From: Chitinophaga sancti
GTDB lineage: Bacteria > Bacteroidota > Bacteroidia > Chitinophagales > Chitinophagaceae
Length of the DNA: 64,000 bases
Assembly: GCF_034424315.1 (NCBI RefSeq)
Contig: NZ_CP139972.1
Coordinates: 3,658,001-3,722,000 of the forward strand
Direction of reading: 5' to 3'
Shown: positions 52,634 to 61,223 of the stretch, one piece after another
Numbering within the stretch: the stretch's first letter is position 1
Layout: each line of letters starts with the position of its first letter
Notes under the pieces: model-generated
Seen by the model: the letters and a program-made list of their open reading frames with translations, nothing else
Told to the model about the DNA's origin: nothing
The model's database searches: none
Position numbers and translations under genes: made by a program

Positions 52634-53743
52634 ATGCTACATCAACTTGCAAATTTGCCAGACAATGAGCTCATGGCCAGAGCAAGAAAATTGAAAGATG
52701 AGGAAGCAGCAGGAATTTTACTGGAGAGATATAGCCATTTGCTGGCAGTAGTGTCCTTACCATCTTTGAATAACTACGATAACACCCCTGACGAATTTTT
52801 CCCTTCTCTTTTAAAGAGGTTGTTTAAGAGTCTGCAGACACAGACTATCCCCAAAATAGGCGAATGGATGCAATTCTTCATCAAGTCACAAGGCAACAGG
52901 GAAGCGAGGAATACGTATTATTTCCCTACTTCCGCATCCAGCGATATTACCCGGCTTGAGAATAAGGTAGAGAAAGCGAACAACAATCTGATGCAGCGAA
53001 AAGAATTGACTGTGACGATGAAAACAGCGTTTGACGACCTGGAAACATCTCATAAAGAGATTCTGAAAGAGTTTTATTTTGATCAGAAGACTTTTGCTGA
53101 AATAGCGGCGGATAGAGAGTATACGATGGATAAGATCAGGAAAATGATTAAACGGTCTAAACAGGAACTGGCCTCTCTTATTTTGGAGAAACTGGAATAT
53201 GCGAAAATCAATAAGTATACAAGTCCTACAGAGGAAGAACAGGCGCCTATACTGGTAATAGAAAATGAAGTACCTAAGAAAAAGAAAAAAGGGCCGGCAT
53301 CATCTGTGAAAAGTGCAGCTCCCAGGAAACAGAAACAAAGCAATGAATCAGCGGAACCTGCGTTGGTGCTGATTTCTGCTAAATCAGCCATCATAGCACG
53401 GGAGCAACCAACAGCTAAACTGATTGCTGTGGAAGAAGGAACCGCCACAGCTACTATGATGGTAGCGGTAGAAGCAGCTGCTATGATTGTAGCTGAGGAA
53501 AAAGAAGCAACTGCTCCTACTATGATGGTGGCTGTACAACCAGTTGAAGCAATTCAGCCAATAAAGCAGGGGCCGGCTTTAGTATTAGTCTCTACCAACG
53601 CAACAACACAAACAGCATCCCCGGCTTCGGTCCAGGAAACAGGCATTTCAACCAATCAGGAAAAAGATTTAAACCAAGGATATGCAACCTCTCGAAAACA
53701 AGGACAAGATATTCAAGATCTTCAGCAAGGTTCGTTGTTTTAG
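52634..53743 (+). CDS. Sigma-70-like (ECF-type) factor with long low-complexity tail
   Basis: A 369-residue protein. Residues 1-95 look like a degenerate sigma region 2 (NELMARARKLKDEEAAGILL, then PDEFFPSLLKRLFKSL and WMQFFIKSQGNREARN). A region 4 helix-turn-helix follows at about 135-185: DDLETSHKEILKEFYFDQKT, FAEIAADREYTMDKIRKMIK. The last about 170 residues are Ala/Val/Glu-rich and low-complexity, with near repeats such as TMMVAVEAAAMIVAEEKEA and TMMVAVQPVEA. That tail is not part of normal ECF sigma factors. It overlaps the next gene by 62 bp in another frame, so the pair is translationally coupled. Confidence 0.75.
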   Translation: MLHQLANLPDNELMARARKLKDEEAAGILLERYSHLLAVVSLPSLNNYDNTPDEFFPSLLKRLFKSLQTQTIPKIGEWMQFFIKSQGNREARNTYYFPTSASSDITRLENKVEKANNNLMQRKELTVTMKTAFDDLETSHKEILKEFYFDQKTFAEIAADREYTMDKIRKMIKRSKQELASLILEKLEYAKINKYTSPTEEEQAPILVIENEVPKKKKKGPASSVKSAAPRKQKQSNESAEPALVLISAKSAIIAREQPTAKLIAVEEGTATATMMVAVEAAAMIVAEEKEATAPTMMVAVQPVEAIQPIKQGPALVLVSTNATTQTASPASVQETGISTNQEKDLNQGYATSRKQGQDIQDLQQGSLF

Positions 53744-54467
53744 TAAAGATCAACTACCCCGCTATGTAGACGGTCGTTTAACACATGTTGAAAAGCACCT
53801 CCTGGAACAACATCTTGTGAACTGTGAACTTTGCAGCAGTGCTGTTGAAATTCTCCAAAAACCAAAATACCACGCGCAATACCAGCCGATGGGTGTGAAA
53901 GTGCAGGAACTCATTCGTAGTAATGAAATTGCCCCGGTTTATGAAACGGAACGCTATCAAAAGAGAATAGAGACACAGGAAAGATTCCTTACTTACTTCT
54001 GGAGCGTAGTAGCAGCGGCATTGGTAACAGGTCTTGTTTTCCTGATCACCCAGCAAACAAAAACTGACAACTTTCATCCTGCCATTGCTAAGACAGAGAC
54101 AATAGCAGCACCGGAGACAGCTTCTCCTGGCACAGCTCATACTGATACTGTTGCTTCCGGAGATGGAGATAGTACTGCTGCGGCAGCACCTGTTTTGCTG
54201 GCGGAAACAGGTACTGAATCAGATCAGTCAATTTTCAAAACAGCCATGGCACACTATTACAAAGGCAAACTGGATGAAGCCATACCATTACTGACTAAAC
54301 TGACTACAGATAGCAGCAGCAGTTATGGGGAATTAGCCCGATACCAATTGGCGATGTGTTATAAATATAAAAAACAGAAGGTCAAAGCGCGGAATATGTT
54401 TACGGAATTGGTGAAGATGGATGGTCGTATGAAGAAAAGAGCCCTATTAGCATTGAATAACCTATAA
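53682..54467 (+). CDS. Anti-sigma-like membrane protein with zinc-finger and TPR
   Basis: A 261-residue protein. The N-terminus has an HC2-type zinc-binding anti-sigma motif: HVEKHLLEQHLVNCELCSSA (H-x3-C-type spacing with a C-x-x-C pair). A transmembrane helix is at about 105-124 (FWSVVAAALVTGLVFLI). The periplasmic part ends in TPR-like repeats (MAHYYKGKLDEAIPLLTK, YQLAMCYKYKKQKVKARNMF). It probably holds the sigma-like factor at the membrane. It starts inside the upstream gene and a hairpin at 54533 follows it. Confidence 0.75.
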   Translation: MQPLENKDKIFKIFSKVRCFSKDQLPRYVDGRLTHVEKHLLEQHLVNCELCSSAVEILQKPKYHAQYQPMGVKVQELIRSNEIAPVYETERYQKRIETQERFLTYFWSVVAAALVTGLVFLITQQTKTDNFHPAIAKTETIAAPETASPGTAHTDTVASGDGDSTAAAAPVLLAETGTESDQSIFKTAMAHYYKGKLDEAIPLLTKLTTDSSSSYGELARYQLAMCYKYKKQKVKARNMFTELVKMDGRMKKRALLALNNL

Positions 54468-54532
54468 AACCAAAATGGCTATTGGGTTCTGTCACCCGTT
54501 GTGTGTAACTATATAAGTTTTCAATAGAGACG

Positions 54533-54559
54533 AAAAGCCCGGCGATATGCCGTGCTTTT
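54533..54559 (+). terminator. Terminator between anti-sigma and J-domain genes
   Basis: AAAAGCCCGGC (54533-54543) and GCCGTGCTTTT (54549-54559) pair with one mismatch and a 5-nt loop, ending in a T-run. Confidence 0.75.
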
Positions 54560-54561
54560 CC

Positions 54562-54569
54562 TATTTTTG
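54562..54569 (+). promoter_or_regulatory. -7 box directly before J-domain gene
   Basis: TATTTTTG is a perfect TAnnTTTG box only 5 nt upstream of the ATG at 54575, right after a terminator. If active, it would give a leaderless or very short leader transcript. Confidence 0.5.
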
Positions 54570-54574
54570 CCTCC

Positions 54575-55567
54575 ATGTCACAGGAATTAGAAAAGCGCCA
54601 GGGGGAACTCAATATCAAAAAGTCAAGCCTCAGCAAAGAGCAAAAAACTTTTAACAAGCTGATACAGCAGATTGCCGCTTTGCGCCAGGAGCTGGCAGAA
54701 CTCACTGCCATACTGGATAAACAACGACAGCATTACATCAAACATATCTATCCCTTTGTACAACAGCTCACCGGTCTGCGTGCACAACTCGTGGTGCTGA
54801 TGAATGGTTTCATGACGCTTTCCAAAGGTCTCTCTGATTATGAAAAGGAAGATTTGCGGGGATTGATCCTGCACCTGTTACAGGATATCTTCAGGTATCA
54901 GCAGGGAGAACCGGAAGGTGAACTACTGGACATCTTCAATGCATTATCTGATACCACTTACCAGGATATCAATGAACAATACCTGGCTAAATTAAGGGTA
55001 GCAGCAGCTACAGAAGAAACCTTACCTGCACCTGTGACAGCATCGAAACGCGAACGCTATAAAGAGGAAAAGGAAAGACTGCTGGATGCCCTGCGCAGGA
55101 AGAATATCCAACAACTATACAGACAACTGGCCAAGTTCTTTCATCCTGATCTTGAACAGGATCCGGGGAAAATACAGTTGAAAGAAGAACTGATGAAGCA
55201 GCTCATCATTGCTAAAGAAAACGAAGACCTGCTCTCCATGCTGCAACTGGAAATACAATGGATAGAGCAGGAAGACAGGCATCCTGATCTGCTGACCAAT
55301 GATAAGCTTCACCTGTATAATACCACCCTGAAAGAACAGGTGAAGGACTTACAGGAACAGATTCAATCTCTTTTCAATCATCCTAAATATGAATTTCTGC
55401 AAGGCTTTGCAAAAACACCGCAAAGTGCCCGGTTTATAGACTGGAAGAGTGAAAAGAATAACCTGGATAATTTACTGTATGGATTCAGAGAAATTATCAG
55501 TGGATTATCACAGGATACAAAGAGCGCATTAAAAGTGCTGAAAGGTGTTTTGAAAAACAATACCTGA
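54575..55567 (+). CDS. Coiled-coil protein with J-like domain
   Basis: A 330-residue cytosolic protein. The N-terminal about 60 residues form a coiled coil (LEKRQGELNIKKSSLSKEQK, IAALRQELAELTAILDK). After a linker rich in Ala/Glu/Pro comes a J-like domain: LYRQLAKFFHPDLEQDPGKI with the HPD triad at 190-192, followed by a helix (LLSMLQLEIQWIEQ). A second coiled-coil region (LKEQVKDLQEQIQSLF) ends the protein. J proteins stimulate DnaK-type chaperones. Its stop TGA overlaps the archaemetzincin ATG, so the two are coupled. Confidence 0.78.
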   Translation: MSQELEKRQGELNIKKSSLSKEQKTFNKLIQQIAALRQELAELTAILDKQRQHYIKHIYPFVQQLTGLRAQLVVLMNGFMTLSKGLSDYEKEDLRGLILHLLQDIFRYQQGEPEGELLDIFNALSDTTYQDINEQYLAKLRVAAATEETLPAPVTASKRERYKEEKERLLDALRRKNIQQLYRQLAKFFHPDLEQDPGKIQLKEELMKQLIIAKENEDLLSMLQLEIQWIEQEDRHPDLLTNDKLHLYNTTLKEQVKDLQEQIQSLFNHPKYEFLQGFAKTPQSARFIDWKSEKNNLDNLLYGFREIISGLSQDTKSALKVLKGVLKNNT

Positions 55568-56400
55568 TGAAATATTTAGCTTTCATTTTTATAACCTGCT
55601 TATTATTTTCCTGCCATTCCCAAAAGCAGGACCCGGAGATGGCCCATTTAGCATCCCTGGCAAAAAATGATATTCCGTTACCTCCACCTGAATACGGAGA
55701 CTGGTTATATAGGCATAAAGAAAGAGGGCAAAACCTGGCAGCCTATCAGGCTACGAAACCTATTTCCAGTGCAACAACTATTTATTTATTACCCGTCGGA
55801 GATTTTACAGCTTCGCAAACCAGGGCATTTCAGGATGCAAGCGCCTACATAGCTATTTTTTTCCAGCGGAAAACAGTATTACTACACCCCATACCTGATA
55901 GCGAATTTACTTCCCGCATATTCGAAGGTCATCGGCAATTACTGGCACCTTATATACTGGATAGTGTATTACTCAGTAAACGGCCTGCGAATAACCTCGC
56001 TATGATGGCACTCAGCGCTAAAGACCTATATCCGCAGGATGATTGGAATTATGTTTTCGGGCTTGGCTCCTACGGGAAAAGAGTGGGGGTAACCTCCATT
56101 TACCGTTTACAGGAGAAAAATTTCCTGCGAAGACTGGTAAGCATTTCCTCTCATGAAATAGGCCATATGCTTTCATTACATCACTGTATTCATGCCCTTT
56201 GTGTGATGAACGGCACCAATGGCCTGTATGAAACAGATAGGGCGCCATTGCGTTTATGCGCTGAATGCCAGCAAAAATTGTTTTGGAATTTAAAGTATGA
56301 TAACCAAAAACGGCTGCAGGAACTGATGGCGTATTGTAAGGAAAATGGCTTCCAAAAAGATTGGGAGATCTTCAATAAAGATAATAATCAAAACGAGTGA
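55567..56400 (+). CDS. Archaemetzincin-like metalloprotease lipoprotein
   Basis: A 277-residue lipoprotein (CLLFSC, lipobox Cys16). Zinc motif HEIGHMLSLHHC at residues 196-207, followed by Cys212, Met214, Cys231 and Cys234, fits the AMZ signature HExxHxxGx3Cx4CxM...CxxC, with the Gly replaced by Ser203 and 16 rather than 17 residues before the last pair. Substrates of archaemetzincins are mostly unknown. It is anchored to the envelope rather than cytosolic, which is unusual for the family. Convergent with the PepSY gene with three bases between stops. Confidence 0.85.
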   Translation: MKYLAFIFITCLLFSCHSQKQDPEMAHLASLAKNDIPLPPPEYGDWLYRHKERGQNLAAYQATKPISSATTIYLLPVGDFTASQTRAFQDASAYIAIFFQRKTVLLHPIPDSEFTSRIFEGHRQLLAPYILDSVLLSKRPANNLAMMALSAKDLYPQDDWNYVFGLGSYGKRVGVTSIYRLQEKNFLRRLVSISSHEIGHMLSLHHCIHALCVMNGTNGLYETDRAPLRLCAECQQKLFWNLKYDNQKRLQELMAYCKENGFQKDWEIFNKDNNQNE

Positions 56401-60194: not shown

Positions 60195-61223
60195 ATGAGA
60201 ATGTTCGTAATCGCCCTGATGCTGATCTGCTGTAGCTGCAGAAAATCAGACACTACCCCTGCAAACTATCCTGATGATGATTTGGAAGGACCTGTTGCAA
60301 GACCTGCCAGCGGATATGGAGCAGATGGTTCCTATACTGTAGCCAGCGTAAGTTTTGACAGTCCTACTTATAGCGGTAAGAAGGTGACCCTGTTTTATCC
60401 TAAAGAGGCTAAAGGTCCGGTACCTGTTATTTTTTATTCACATCCCTATGGTGGAGAGGAAGTCTCTTATAATATAGGCCTGTACAATTTTATTGCGAAG
60501 AAGGGTTATGCGGTGGTGTTTGCGCCTTATCCTACTACGGGTGCTAATGTCAATGTTGATTCAAGGTATAATACACTGTGGCAAAGTTTTCTGAAAGCAG
60601 TGAATGACTATCCTGCTATTATTGATACAAAGAAAGTGGGATTTATGGGGCATTCATTTGGCGGCGGTGCATCTTTTGCCATGGCGTATAAAGGATTTGT
60701 GGAGAATGGCTGGGGAGAAAACGGGCGGTTCATTTTCGCCATGGCACAGTGGTATTCATATAATATTACGGCTACACAGTTACAAAGTTTCCCTTCCAAT
60801 ACAAAGTTGATTACAGAGGTGTATAATGATGATGTAACGAATGATCACCGGTTGGCAATTGACATTTTTAAACATATCAATATTGCAGATTCAGAAAAGG
60901 ATTATATCCTGGCAAAGCAAAGCGTGGTGAATGGCTATACTTATACAGCGGCACATGATCTGCCCAGTTCAAGAACGGCTTATGATGCTTATGACTATTA
61001 TGTAGAGTATAGATTGCTGGATGCAATGATTGATTATAGTTTTAATGGAAATGCAAATGCTAAAAATACGGCTTTGGGGAATGGTTCATCTGCACAGGTG
61101 AGCCTGCCACAGGGCATGACACCGCTGGAAGTGACGGACAATCCGGTAGCGGCTTTTCCACAGAGTAAATATCTTTTCCCCTGTGGATCGACTGATAATC
61201 CAAGGATTGCGAACTGCGAATGA
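60195..61223 (+). CDS. Alpha/beta hydrolase lipoprotein (dienelactone hydrolase-like)
   Basis: A 342-residue lipoprotein (LICCSCRK, lipobox Cys around 15). The fold shows PVPVIFYSHPYGG (oxyanion region), VGFMGHSFGGGASFAMA (nucleophile Ser in GHSFGG, about residue 153) and later TAAHDLPSSRTAYDAYDYYV (candidate His). It resembles dienelactone-hydrolase/chlorophyllase-type enzymes. A periplasm-facing esterase of unknown substrate. Terminated by a strong hairpin. Confidence 0.78.
   Translation: MRMFVIALMLICCSCRKSDTTPANYPDDDLEGPVARPASGYGADGSYTVASVSFDSPTYSGKKVTLFYPKEAKGPVPVIFYSHPYGGEEVSYNIGLYNFIAKKGYAVVFAPYPTTGANVNVDSRYNTLWQSFLKAVNDYPAIIDTKKVGFMGHSFGGGASFAMAYKGFVENGWGENGRFIFAMAQWYSYNITATQLQSFPSNTKLITEVYNDDVTNDHRLAIDIFKHINIADSEKDYILAKQSVVNGYTYTAAHDLPSSRTAYDAYDYYVEYRLLDAMIDYSFNGNANAKNTALGNGSSAQVSLPQGMTPLEVTDNPVAAFPQSKYLFPCGSTDNPRIANCE

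Follow-up and report, generated by a model that had tools for sequence, protein, structure and literature searches.

A sigma factor in Chitinophaga sancti with a variable tail and a nearly invariant end encoded within the overlapping anti-sigma gene

Introduction

Why does a sigma factor of the extracytoplasmic function (ECF) type carry a long tail of variable sequence that closes with an almost unchanging peptide, encoded inside the gene of its own anti-sigma factor? The question is raised by a locus of Chitinophaga sancti that lies in a 64,000-nucleotide stretch of contig NZ_CP139972.1 (RefSeq assembly GCF_034424315.1, positions 3,658,001 to 3,722,000 of the forward strand), referred to here as the window; its genome (G000) is a single contig of 8.42 Mb. 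The locus comprises genes for a sigma-type protein (gene 1), an anti-sigma protein (gene 2), a J-like coiled-coil protein (gene 3) and an archaemetzincin-like (M54) lipoprotein (gene 4). An initial annotation, made from the sequence alone, had described these four consecutive genes and a 62-bp overlap between the first two (positions 53682–53743), and all of the open reading frames (ORFs) lie where it placed them.

In the reading that we consider probable, genes 1 and 2 form a duplicated sigma/anti-sigma switch, and the sigma factor bears a tail that was overprinted on the anti-sigma gene, lengthened by repeats and placed under selection. The pair has a paralogue, an exact overlap, a variable linker and a frozen end. 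The freeze may reflect selection on the sigma protein, the tail would have arisen through loss of a stop codon, and its role could be that of a tether.

Results

A variable linker and a fixed end

The sigma factor continues for 182 amino acids past residue 187. The tail of about 170 residues recorded in the initial annotation is indeed unusual, but it consists of two parts that had not been separated there, a linker of 162 amino acids and a conserved end of 20. This nearly invariant end reads GQDIKDLQQGSLF, directly followed by the stop codon, and the stretch that carries its QGSLF motif is KQGQDIKDLQQGSLF.

We queried 79 genomes of the genus Chitinophaga with the sigma core, the J-like protein and the M54 protein, and found the tailed type of sigma factor in 14 of them, intact in 13. 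In the intact copies, 29 to 191 amino acids of linker separate residue 187 from the final 20 residues; relative to the core, this linker is enriched in E, K, V, P and Q and depleted of L and F. The overlap with the anti-sigma gene is exactly 62 bp in all 13. Tailless pairs overlap by 8 or 11 bp (17 of the 18 examined), and the remaining one, L090, has no overlap.

The end [LI]QQG[ST]LF is kept by 33 of 36 database homologues, the window's own protein included; P0007, P0027 and P0036 were counted as misses. P0007 has its end elsewhere. In P0027, encoded on a contig of 2738 bases, a tailed-type sigma factor is fused in frame to an apparent TPR part of the anti-sigma protein, and the zinc finger and transmembrane (TM) stretch are missing. 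P0036 belongs to the draft genome of Chitinophaga pinensis YS-16 (G152; L120 / L128), where the tailed-type sigma gene is split into two frames and the tail stops short of the anti-sigma gene, which could be due to decay or to a sequencing error.

Identity of the sigma and anti-sigma proteins

The assignment of genes 1 and 2 as a sigma/anti-sigma pair, also made in the initial annotation, is borne out by the predicted fold of the former and the domains of the latter. In an AlphaFold model of gene 1, residues 1–190 were obtained with fair to high confidence, and the folds of both region 2 and region 4 match ECF sigma structures. A Foldseek search with this model gave sigmaE as the best match (E = 2.2e-3), with no match at or below 0.001. 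Nearly all of residues 207–369 have a predicted local distance difference test (pLDDT) score below 50.

Sequence models recognize gene 1 less readily. The best sigma model, TIGR02937, matches mainly over the region-4 stretch and scores below its cut-off (E = 5e-6; 26.2 versus 42.9 bits). The models for regions 2 and 4 do not pass theirs: PF04545 matches with an E-value of 0.15, and none of the 79 PF04542 matches in this sigma-rich genome lies on gene 1. Some homologues (P0018, P0023 and P0024) carry precomputed PF04545 or PF08281 matches. A PDB sequence search with the sigma core returned no matches. The closest named record by sigma core is from Chitinophaga silvisoli, at 94% identity in a listing that may omit the window's own record. 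Elsewhere in the genome, a sigma region-2 match at G000:C1:3477802-3477996 (L185) contains an internal TGA and is probably a broken sigma gene.

The Q-Q/E residues of region 2.2 contact the clamp helices of RNA polymerase. Gene 1 lacks this canonical pattern; the consensus of both the tailed and the tailless sigmaA proteins reads F-P, and the sigmaB protein of the window genome, described below, reads Q-Q.

Gene 2 passes the Pfam cut-offs for zf-HC2 (26.6 versus 22.2 bits) and TPR_6 (29.7 versus 26.3 bits). An Hx3Cx2C pattern (H44/C48/C51) and, at residues ~102–122, a TM-like stretch were recognized by eye. Gene 2 thus has the ZAS domain, TM stretch and adjacent sigma gene of class I membrane anti-sigma factors, and this adjacency is present in all 13 intact tailed loci.

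Probable duplication and proposed origin of the tail

Every one of the 79 genus genomes contains a relative of the sigma core, and in each of the 14 genomes with a tailed-type sigma factor a tailless paralogue is listed as well. The window genome has its second, tailless copy at 8.406–8.409 Mb (G000:C1:8406422-8408931, L115), within an array of sigmaA, anti-sigmaA-TPR, sigmaB and anti-sigmaB genes in which sigmaB looks canonical; G006 and G106 share this double-pair order. Five further tailless proteins, absent from our first homologue search and found in the second, are 70–75% identical to the core. They end at LEYA, where many tailed proteins read LEYAK. In a tree of 75 proteins, which included every second tailless protein, the 35 tailed-type rows form one group (support 100/97) beside P0091, one of these five sisters. 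We therefore think it probable that the tailed pair is a lineage-specific duplicate of the tailless sigmaA/anti-sigmaA-TPR pair of the genus.

The lengths of the overlaps suggest how the tail may have begun: an overlap of 8 bp extended by 18 codons (54 bp) gives 62 bp, exactly that of the tailed pairs. We compared the peptides obtained by reading past the stop of tailless copies (29 loci submitted and 26 rows obtained, of which the L090 row was disregarded as not being in its sigma frame). L075–L077 yield FGKQxQDIKDxQ-like peptides, a shadow of the anti-sigma N-terminus. Only these three give a long similar peptide, and most other tailless copies run into a stop within four codons. Within the linkers, units like EYAKFGKQEQDINL recur in several tails, and tandem arrays are present in G169 and G185 (42 bp) and in G183 (84 bp).

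We infer an origin by stop loss, overprinting and then duplication. The sigma ancestor would have lost its old stop codon, so that its frame extended into the anti-sigma gene by another 18 codons, overprinting the start of that gene and thereby creating a C-terminal peptide. Duplications of about 42 bp at the junction would then have built the long flexible linker.

Probable selection on the sigma frame

The third codon positions of the anti-sigma gene differ sharply in variability along its length. In the 13 tailed copies, they vary in 2 of 15 codons within the overlap (codons 6–20) and in 35 of 38 beyond it (codons 22–60; p = 6e-8). The tailless paralogues of 12 of these genomes served as a control, G131 being left out as the search pattern did not find its paralogue; here, 11 of 14 overlap codons vary, against 37 of 39 beyond (p = 0.11). 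Between tailed and tailless copies, the overlap codons differ with p = 7e-4.

Seen from the sigma frame, the last 14 residues contain a single residue-changing site, K/Q at position −10, with Q in the window only. Four further sites and the stop codon vary silently for the sigma factor, and three of those sites as well as the stop site alter the anti-sigma protein. One such anti-sigma change in the overlap is R/H, where the 12 tailless controls all have R. In residues 1–107 of the sigma core, 27 residues change and 90 third positions vary. Together, these patterns point to protein-level selection on the sigma core and on the end peptide.

Proposed mechanism and alternative explanations for the tail and its end

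The frozen third positions also bear on the most economical alternative, in which the sigma end is conserved solely through the anti-sigma N-terminus and the tail serves no purpose. Read in the shifted frame, a conserved anti-sigma segment gives the end peptide, and the tailless copies L075–L077 would yield a similar one. The silent sites of the anti-sigma gene should then vary as freely as they do 3′ of the overlap (35/38) and in the tailless pairs (11/14), yet they do so in only 2 of 15 codons, and several sigma-silent changes alter anti-sigma residues. We disfavour such a by-product on these grounds and regard it as improbable, although over the whole overlap changes that alter the sigma factor and are silent for the anti-sigma protein are not rarer than expected, which leaves it a small share of the probability. 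Alternatively, the sequence of the tail could be irrelevant and only its open frame needed, carrying ribosomes through to the anti-sigma start so that the anti-sigma protein is made in step with the sigma factor. Tailless pairs manage without a tail, which is therefore unnecessary for coupling, and mere translation requires neither a protein-conserved stretch of 14 residues nor substitutions that are mostly sigma-silent. We consider this translational bridge unlikely, even though all 13 intact copies, hypervariable in sequence and length, keep the frame open and in phase, and even though 17 of 18 tailless pairs already have a short overlap of 8–11 bp, suited to coupling.

The end peptide may have a binding partner. 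In the mechanism that we propose for the duplicated switch, the ECF-type sigma factor would be held at the membrane in the resting state by the ZAS domain of the anti-sigma protein, and the TPR part beyond the TM stretch would sense or relay a signal. Once released, the sigma factor would direct RNA polymerase, while the tail would act as a flexible tether that presents its short C-terminal ligand to a partner. Instead, the end could mark the protein for degradation, or it could bind another partner, such as a protease adaptor, a PDZ domain (through the terminal S-L-F), the cognate anti-sigma protein or RNA polymerase. A terminal S-x-F fits a PDZ-type ligand, and the end is short, nearly invariant, C-terminal and carried on a disordered linker; a degradation signal, by our reasoning, would not need a linker so long and variable. 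We regard this group of explanations as possible, if doubtful. The best single candidate for the partner is the beta sliding clamp, a tentative assignment that we make on motif grounds and hold to be rather unlikely. The commonest clamp-binding motif is given in PMC12309361 as QL[S/D]LF, with the general form QxxLF. In gene 1, QGSLF stands at the very C-terminus, in an exposed, unstructured place (pLDDT ~40). The DinB protein of the same genome ends in QLSLFD, and none of 78 other sigma genes examined in this genome, one of them broken, ends in QxxLF. Among 607 open frames of at least 150 amino acids, taken from all six frames of the DNA examined, 14 end in QxxLF. These are the 13 tailed sigma factors, the window's being counted twice, and no such end occurs in the other 593. 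A PDB sequence search with the end peptide gave no matches.

Several points weigh against a duplicated switch with a selected, clamp-directed tail. Over the whole 59 bp, differences that change the sigma factor and are silent for the anti-sigma protein make up 17% of pairwise differences, where 18% are expected, and are located in the variable 5′ part. The sigma-silent bias (45% versus 23% expected) is limited to the 3′ part and goes together with a 5′ third that varies freely. Moreover, the selection tests ignore phylogeny: each site counts as independent, and the 13 genomes, although related, count as a sample. Change in the overlap could also be slowed by a constraint at the RNA level on the start of the anti-sigma gene. 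Only 3 of 13 tails contain a detectable array of 42 or 84 bp, so that for the window's own tail an origin from repeats is extrapolated from its relatives, and the five LEYA sisters entered the analysis as proteins. Binding of the gene 1 product to RNA polymerase is not assured because its region 2.2 is degenerate. As a clamp motif, the end peptide departs from the full consensus in having G at position 2 (in the 33 of 36 homologues that keep the end), where L or M is usual.

Neighbouring genes

The coordinates of the locus are collected in Table 1. The initial annotation had placed a terminator between genes 2 and 3; a hairpin is found there, and two transcription units are likely. The TATTTTTG box just downstream may resemble the −7 box of Bacteroidota.

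Table 1. Features of the locus, with positions in the window.
Feature	Position	Strand	Details
Gene 1, sigma-type ORF	52634–53743	+	369 aa
Gene 2, anti-sigma ORF	53682–54467	+	261 aa
Gene 3, J-like ORF	54575–55567	+	330 aa
Gene 4, M54 ORF	55567–56400	+	277 aa
ECF-type sigma core	52634–53194	+	residues 1–187; region 2 ~3–91 (divergent), region 4 ~117–190
Hypervariable low-complexity sigma linker	53195–53680	+	162 aa in the window copy
Near-invariant 20-aa sigma C-terminal peptide	53681–53740	+	ends QGSLF before the stop, fits QxxLF
Sigma/anti-sigma overlap, different frames	53682–53743	+	62 bp
Anti-sigma parts	ZAS H44/C48/C51; TM ~53985–54047; TPR ~54222–54440	+	Pfam; TM by eye
Terminator-like hairpin	54532–54560	+	−16 kcal/mol, z −3.7; inner stem also found by hairpin scan
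TATTTTTG box	54562–54569	+	5 nt upstream of the gene 3 ATG
J-like coiled-coil protein	54575–55567	+	HPD = residues 190–192; probably a unit separate from the sigma system
Archaemetzincin-like (M54) lipoprotein	55567–56400	+	HEIGHMLSLHHC at 56152–56187; probably outside the sigma system

Genes 3 and 4 share a 1-bp overlap. The J-like nature of gene 3 rests on a weak Pfam match to DnaJ (E = 0.009; 16.5 versus 27.8 bits) and on its HPD motif, which is invariant in 11 aligned homologues, all of them weak DnaJ matches (best E = 0.0032). Gene 4 is a member of the M54 family, with Peptidase_M54 (PF07998) above its cut-off (44.7 versus 24.4 bits) and NF033823 below (109.4 bits; cut-off 145). Its lipobox, LFSC, and its HExxH...HC pattern were seen by eye. 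The core within HEIGHMLSLHHC reads HExxHxxSxxHC, with S replacing G; this position is S in 8 of the 11 aligned rows, N in one and G in two.

A four-gene circuit for envelope stress had also been proposed, in which the protease would cut the anti-sigma protein and the J-like chaperone would take part. The genes are contiguous in the window, but their neighbourhood across the 79 genus genomes led us to reject this circuit, which we now see as extremely improbable. All four are intact and adjacent in the window genome only; the neighbourhood comparison suggested with the proposal, in which absence of the set from other genomes would speak against it, thus essentially has that outcome. A J-like match is present in 12 of the 79 genomes, at full length in 11, and the sigma pair is directly followed by the J-like gene only in G000 and G160. 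G160 has the gene order of the window, with the M54 gene shortened to an ORF of 86 amino acids (L113:5399-5659; 69 residues matched). This remnant is not followed by relatives of the window's PepSY and TonB-receptor genes; the next gene resembles window positions 60195–61223. In G163, about 13 kb with sulfatase, SusC-like, SusD and DUF421 genes separate the anti-sigma and J-like genes, and the genome search gave no M54 match.

In the remaining genomes with a tailed sigma factor, the J-like gene is distant or unmatched. Sigma and J-like starts lie 10–11 kb from each other in G167 and G168; the J-like gene is located about 16 kb upstream of the sigma gene in G150, about 4 Mb from it in G117, and on a different contig in G157, G169, G183 and G185. 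The J-like search had no match in G131, G133 and G152. The J-like gene and an intact M54 gene are adjacent in G000, G167 and G168. Conversely, 12 genomes without a tailed sigma factor contain an M54 relative (E < 1e-80). A wider search covered 117 genomes of the family, queried with all four proteins. Because adjacency of the sigma pair and the J-like gene is restricted to G000 and G160, the contiguity is local and the units are separate. Genes 1 and 2 would thus be the sigma/anti-sigma switch, and genes 3 and 4 are probably an unrelated neighbouring unit that became contiguous by chance.

Discussion

The locus offers an apparently traceable case of a bacterial regulator that gained a new end by overprinting the gene of its own anti-sigma factor, in which relatives that end at LEYA can be aligned with the lengthened form and with tails that differ widely in length. 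The tail also provides a direct way to ask what role short C-terminal ligands play in sigma factors. Should the end bind the clamp, a cellular sigma factor would be wired to the replication machinery, an arrangement known to us only from T4-type phages. An ECF-type sigma factor tied to the replication clamp by an overprinted peptide on a flexible tether built from repeats could then link a membrane-controlled regulon with replication or repair, as a bacterial analogue of late transcription in T4, a prospect as tentative as the clamp assignment itself. Among the titles and opening lines of abstracts searched, none names a cellular sigma factor that carries such a tail or binds the clamp by its end, which is a weak negative since most subscription papers lie outside this coverage.

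We compared the pair with four known systems. Like class I membrane ZAS anti-sigma factors, gene 2 encodes a zinc-finger ZAS domain and one TM stretch next to a sigma gene; unlike them, it has TPR repeats past the TM stretch and the 62-bp overlap. In PMC8999054, the C-terminal extensions of ECF sigma factors are SnoaL-like, TPR or Cys-rich domains, and the sigma factors that carry them are described as having no anti-sigma factor. These proteins share with gene 1 an ECF-type core and an added C-terminal segment, whereas the window tail is predicted to be disordered, is hypervariable, overlaps the anti-sigma gene and has a fixed short end peptide.

The beta-clamp motifs of the DinB type likewise place QxxLF near the C-terminus; here, position 2 is G and the carrier is a sigma factor, and the likeness is one of motif. 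A comparable layout is that of gp55 of phage T4, which PMC2988020 and PMC7892883 describe as a diverged sigma factor that has a region-2 homology domain and binds the clamp gp45 through a conserved hydrophobic, acidic C-terminal epitope, borne on a linker of variable sequence and length. Compared by layout, both are diverged sigma factors with a variable linker and a C-terminal end; the window sigma factor differs in possessing region 4, and its link to the clamp is a motif match.

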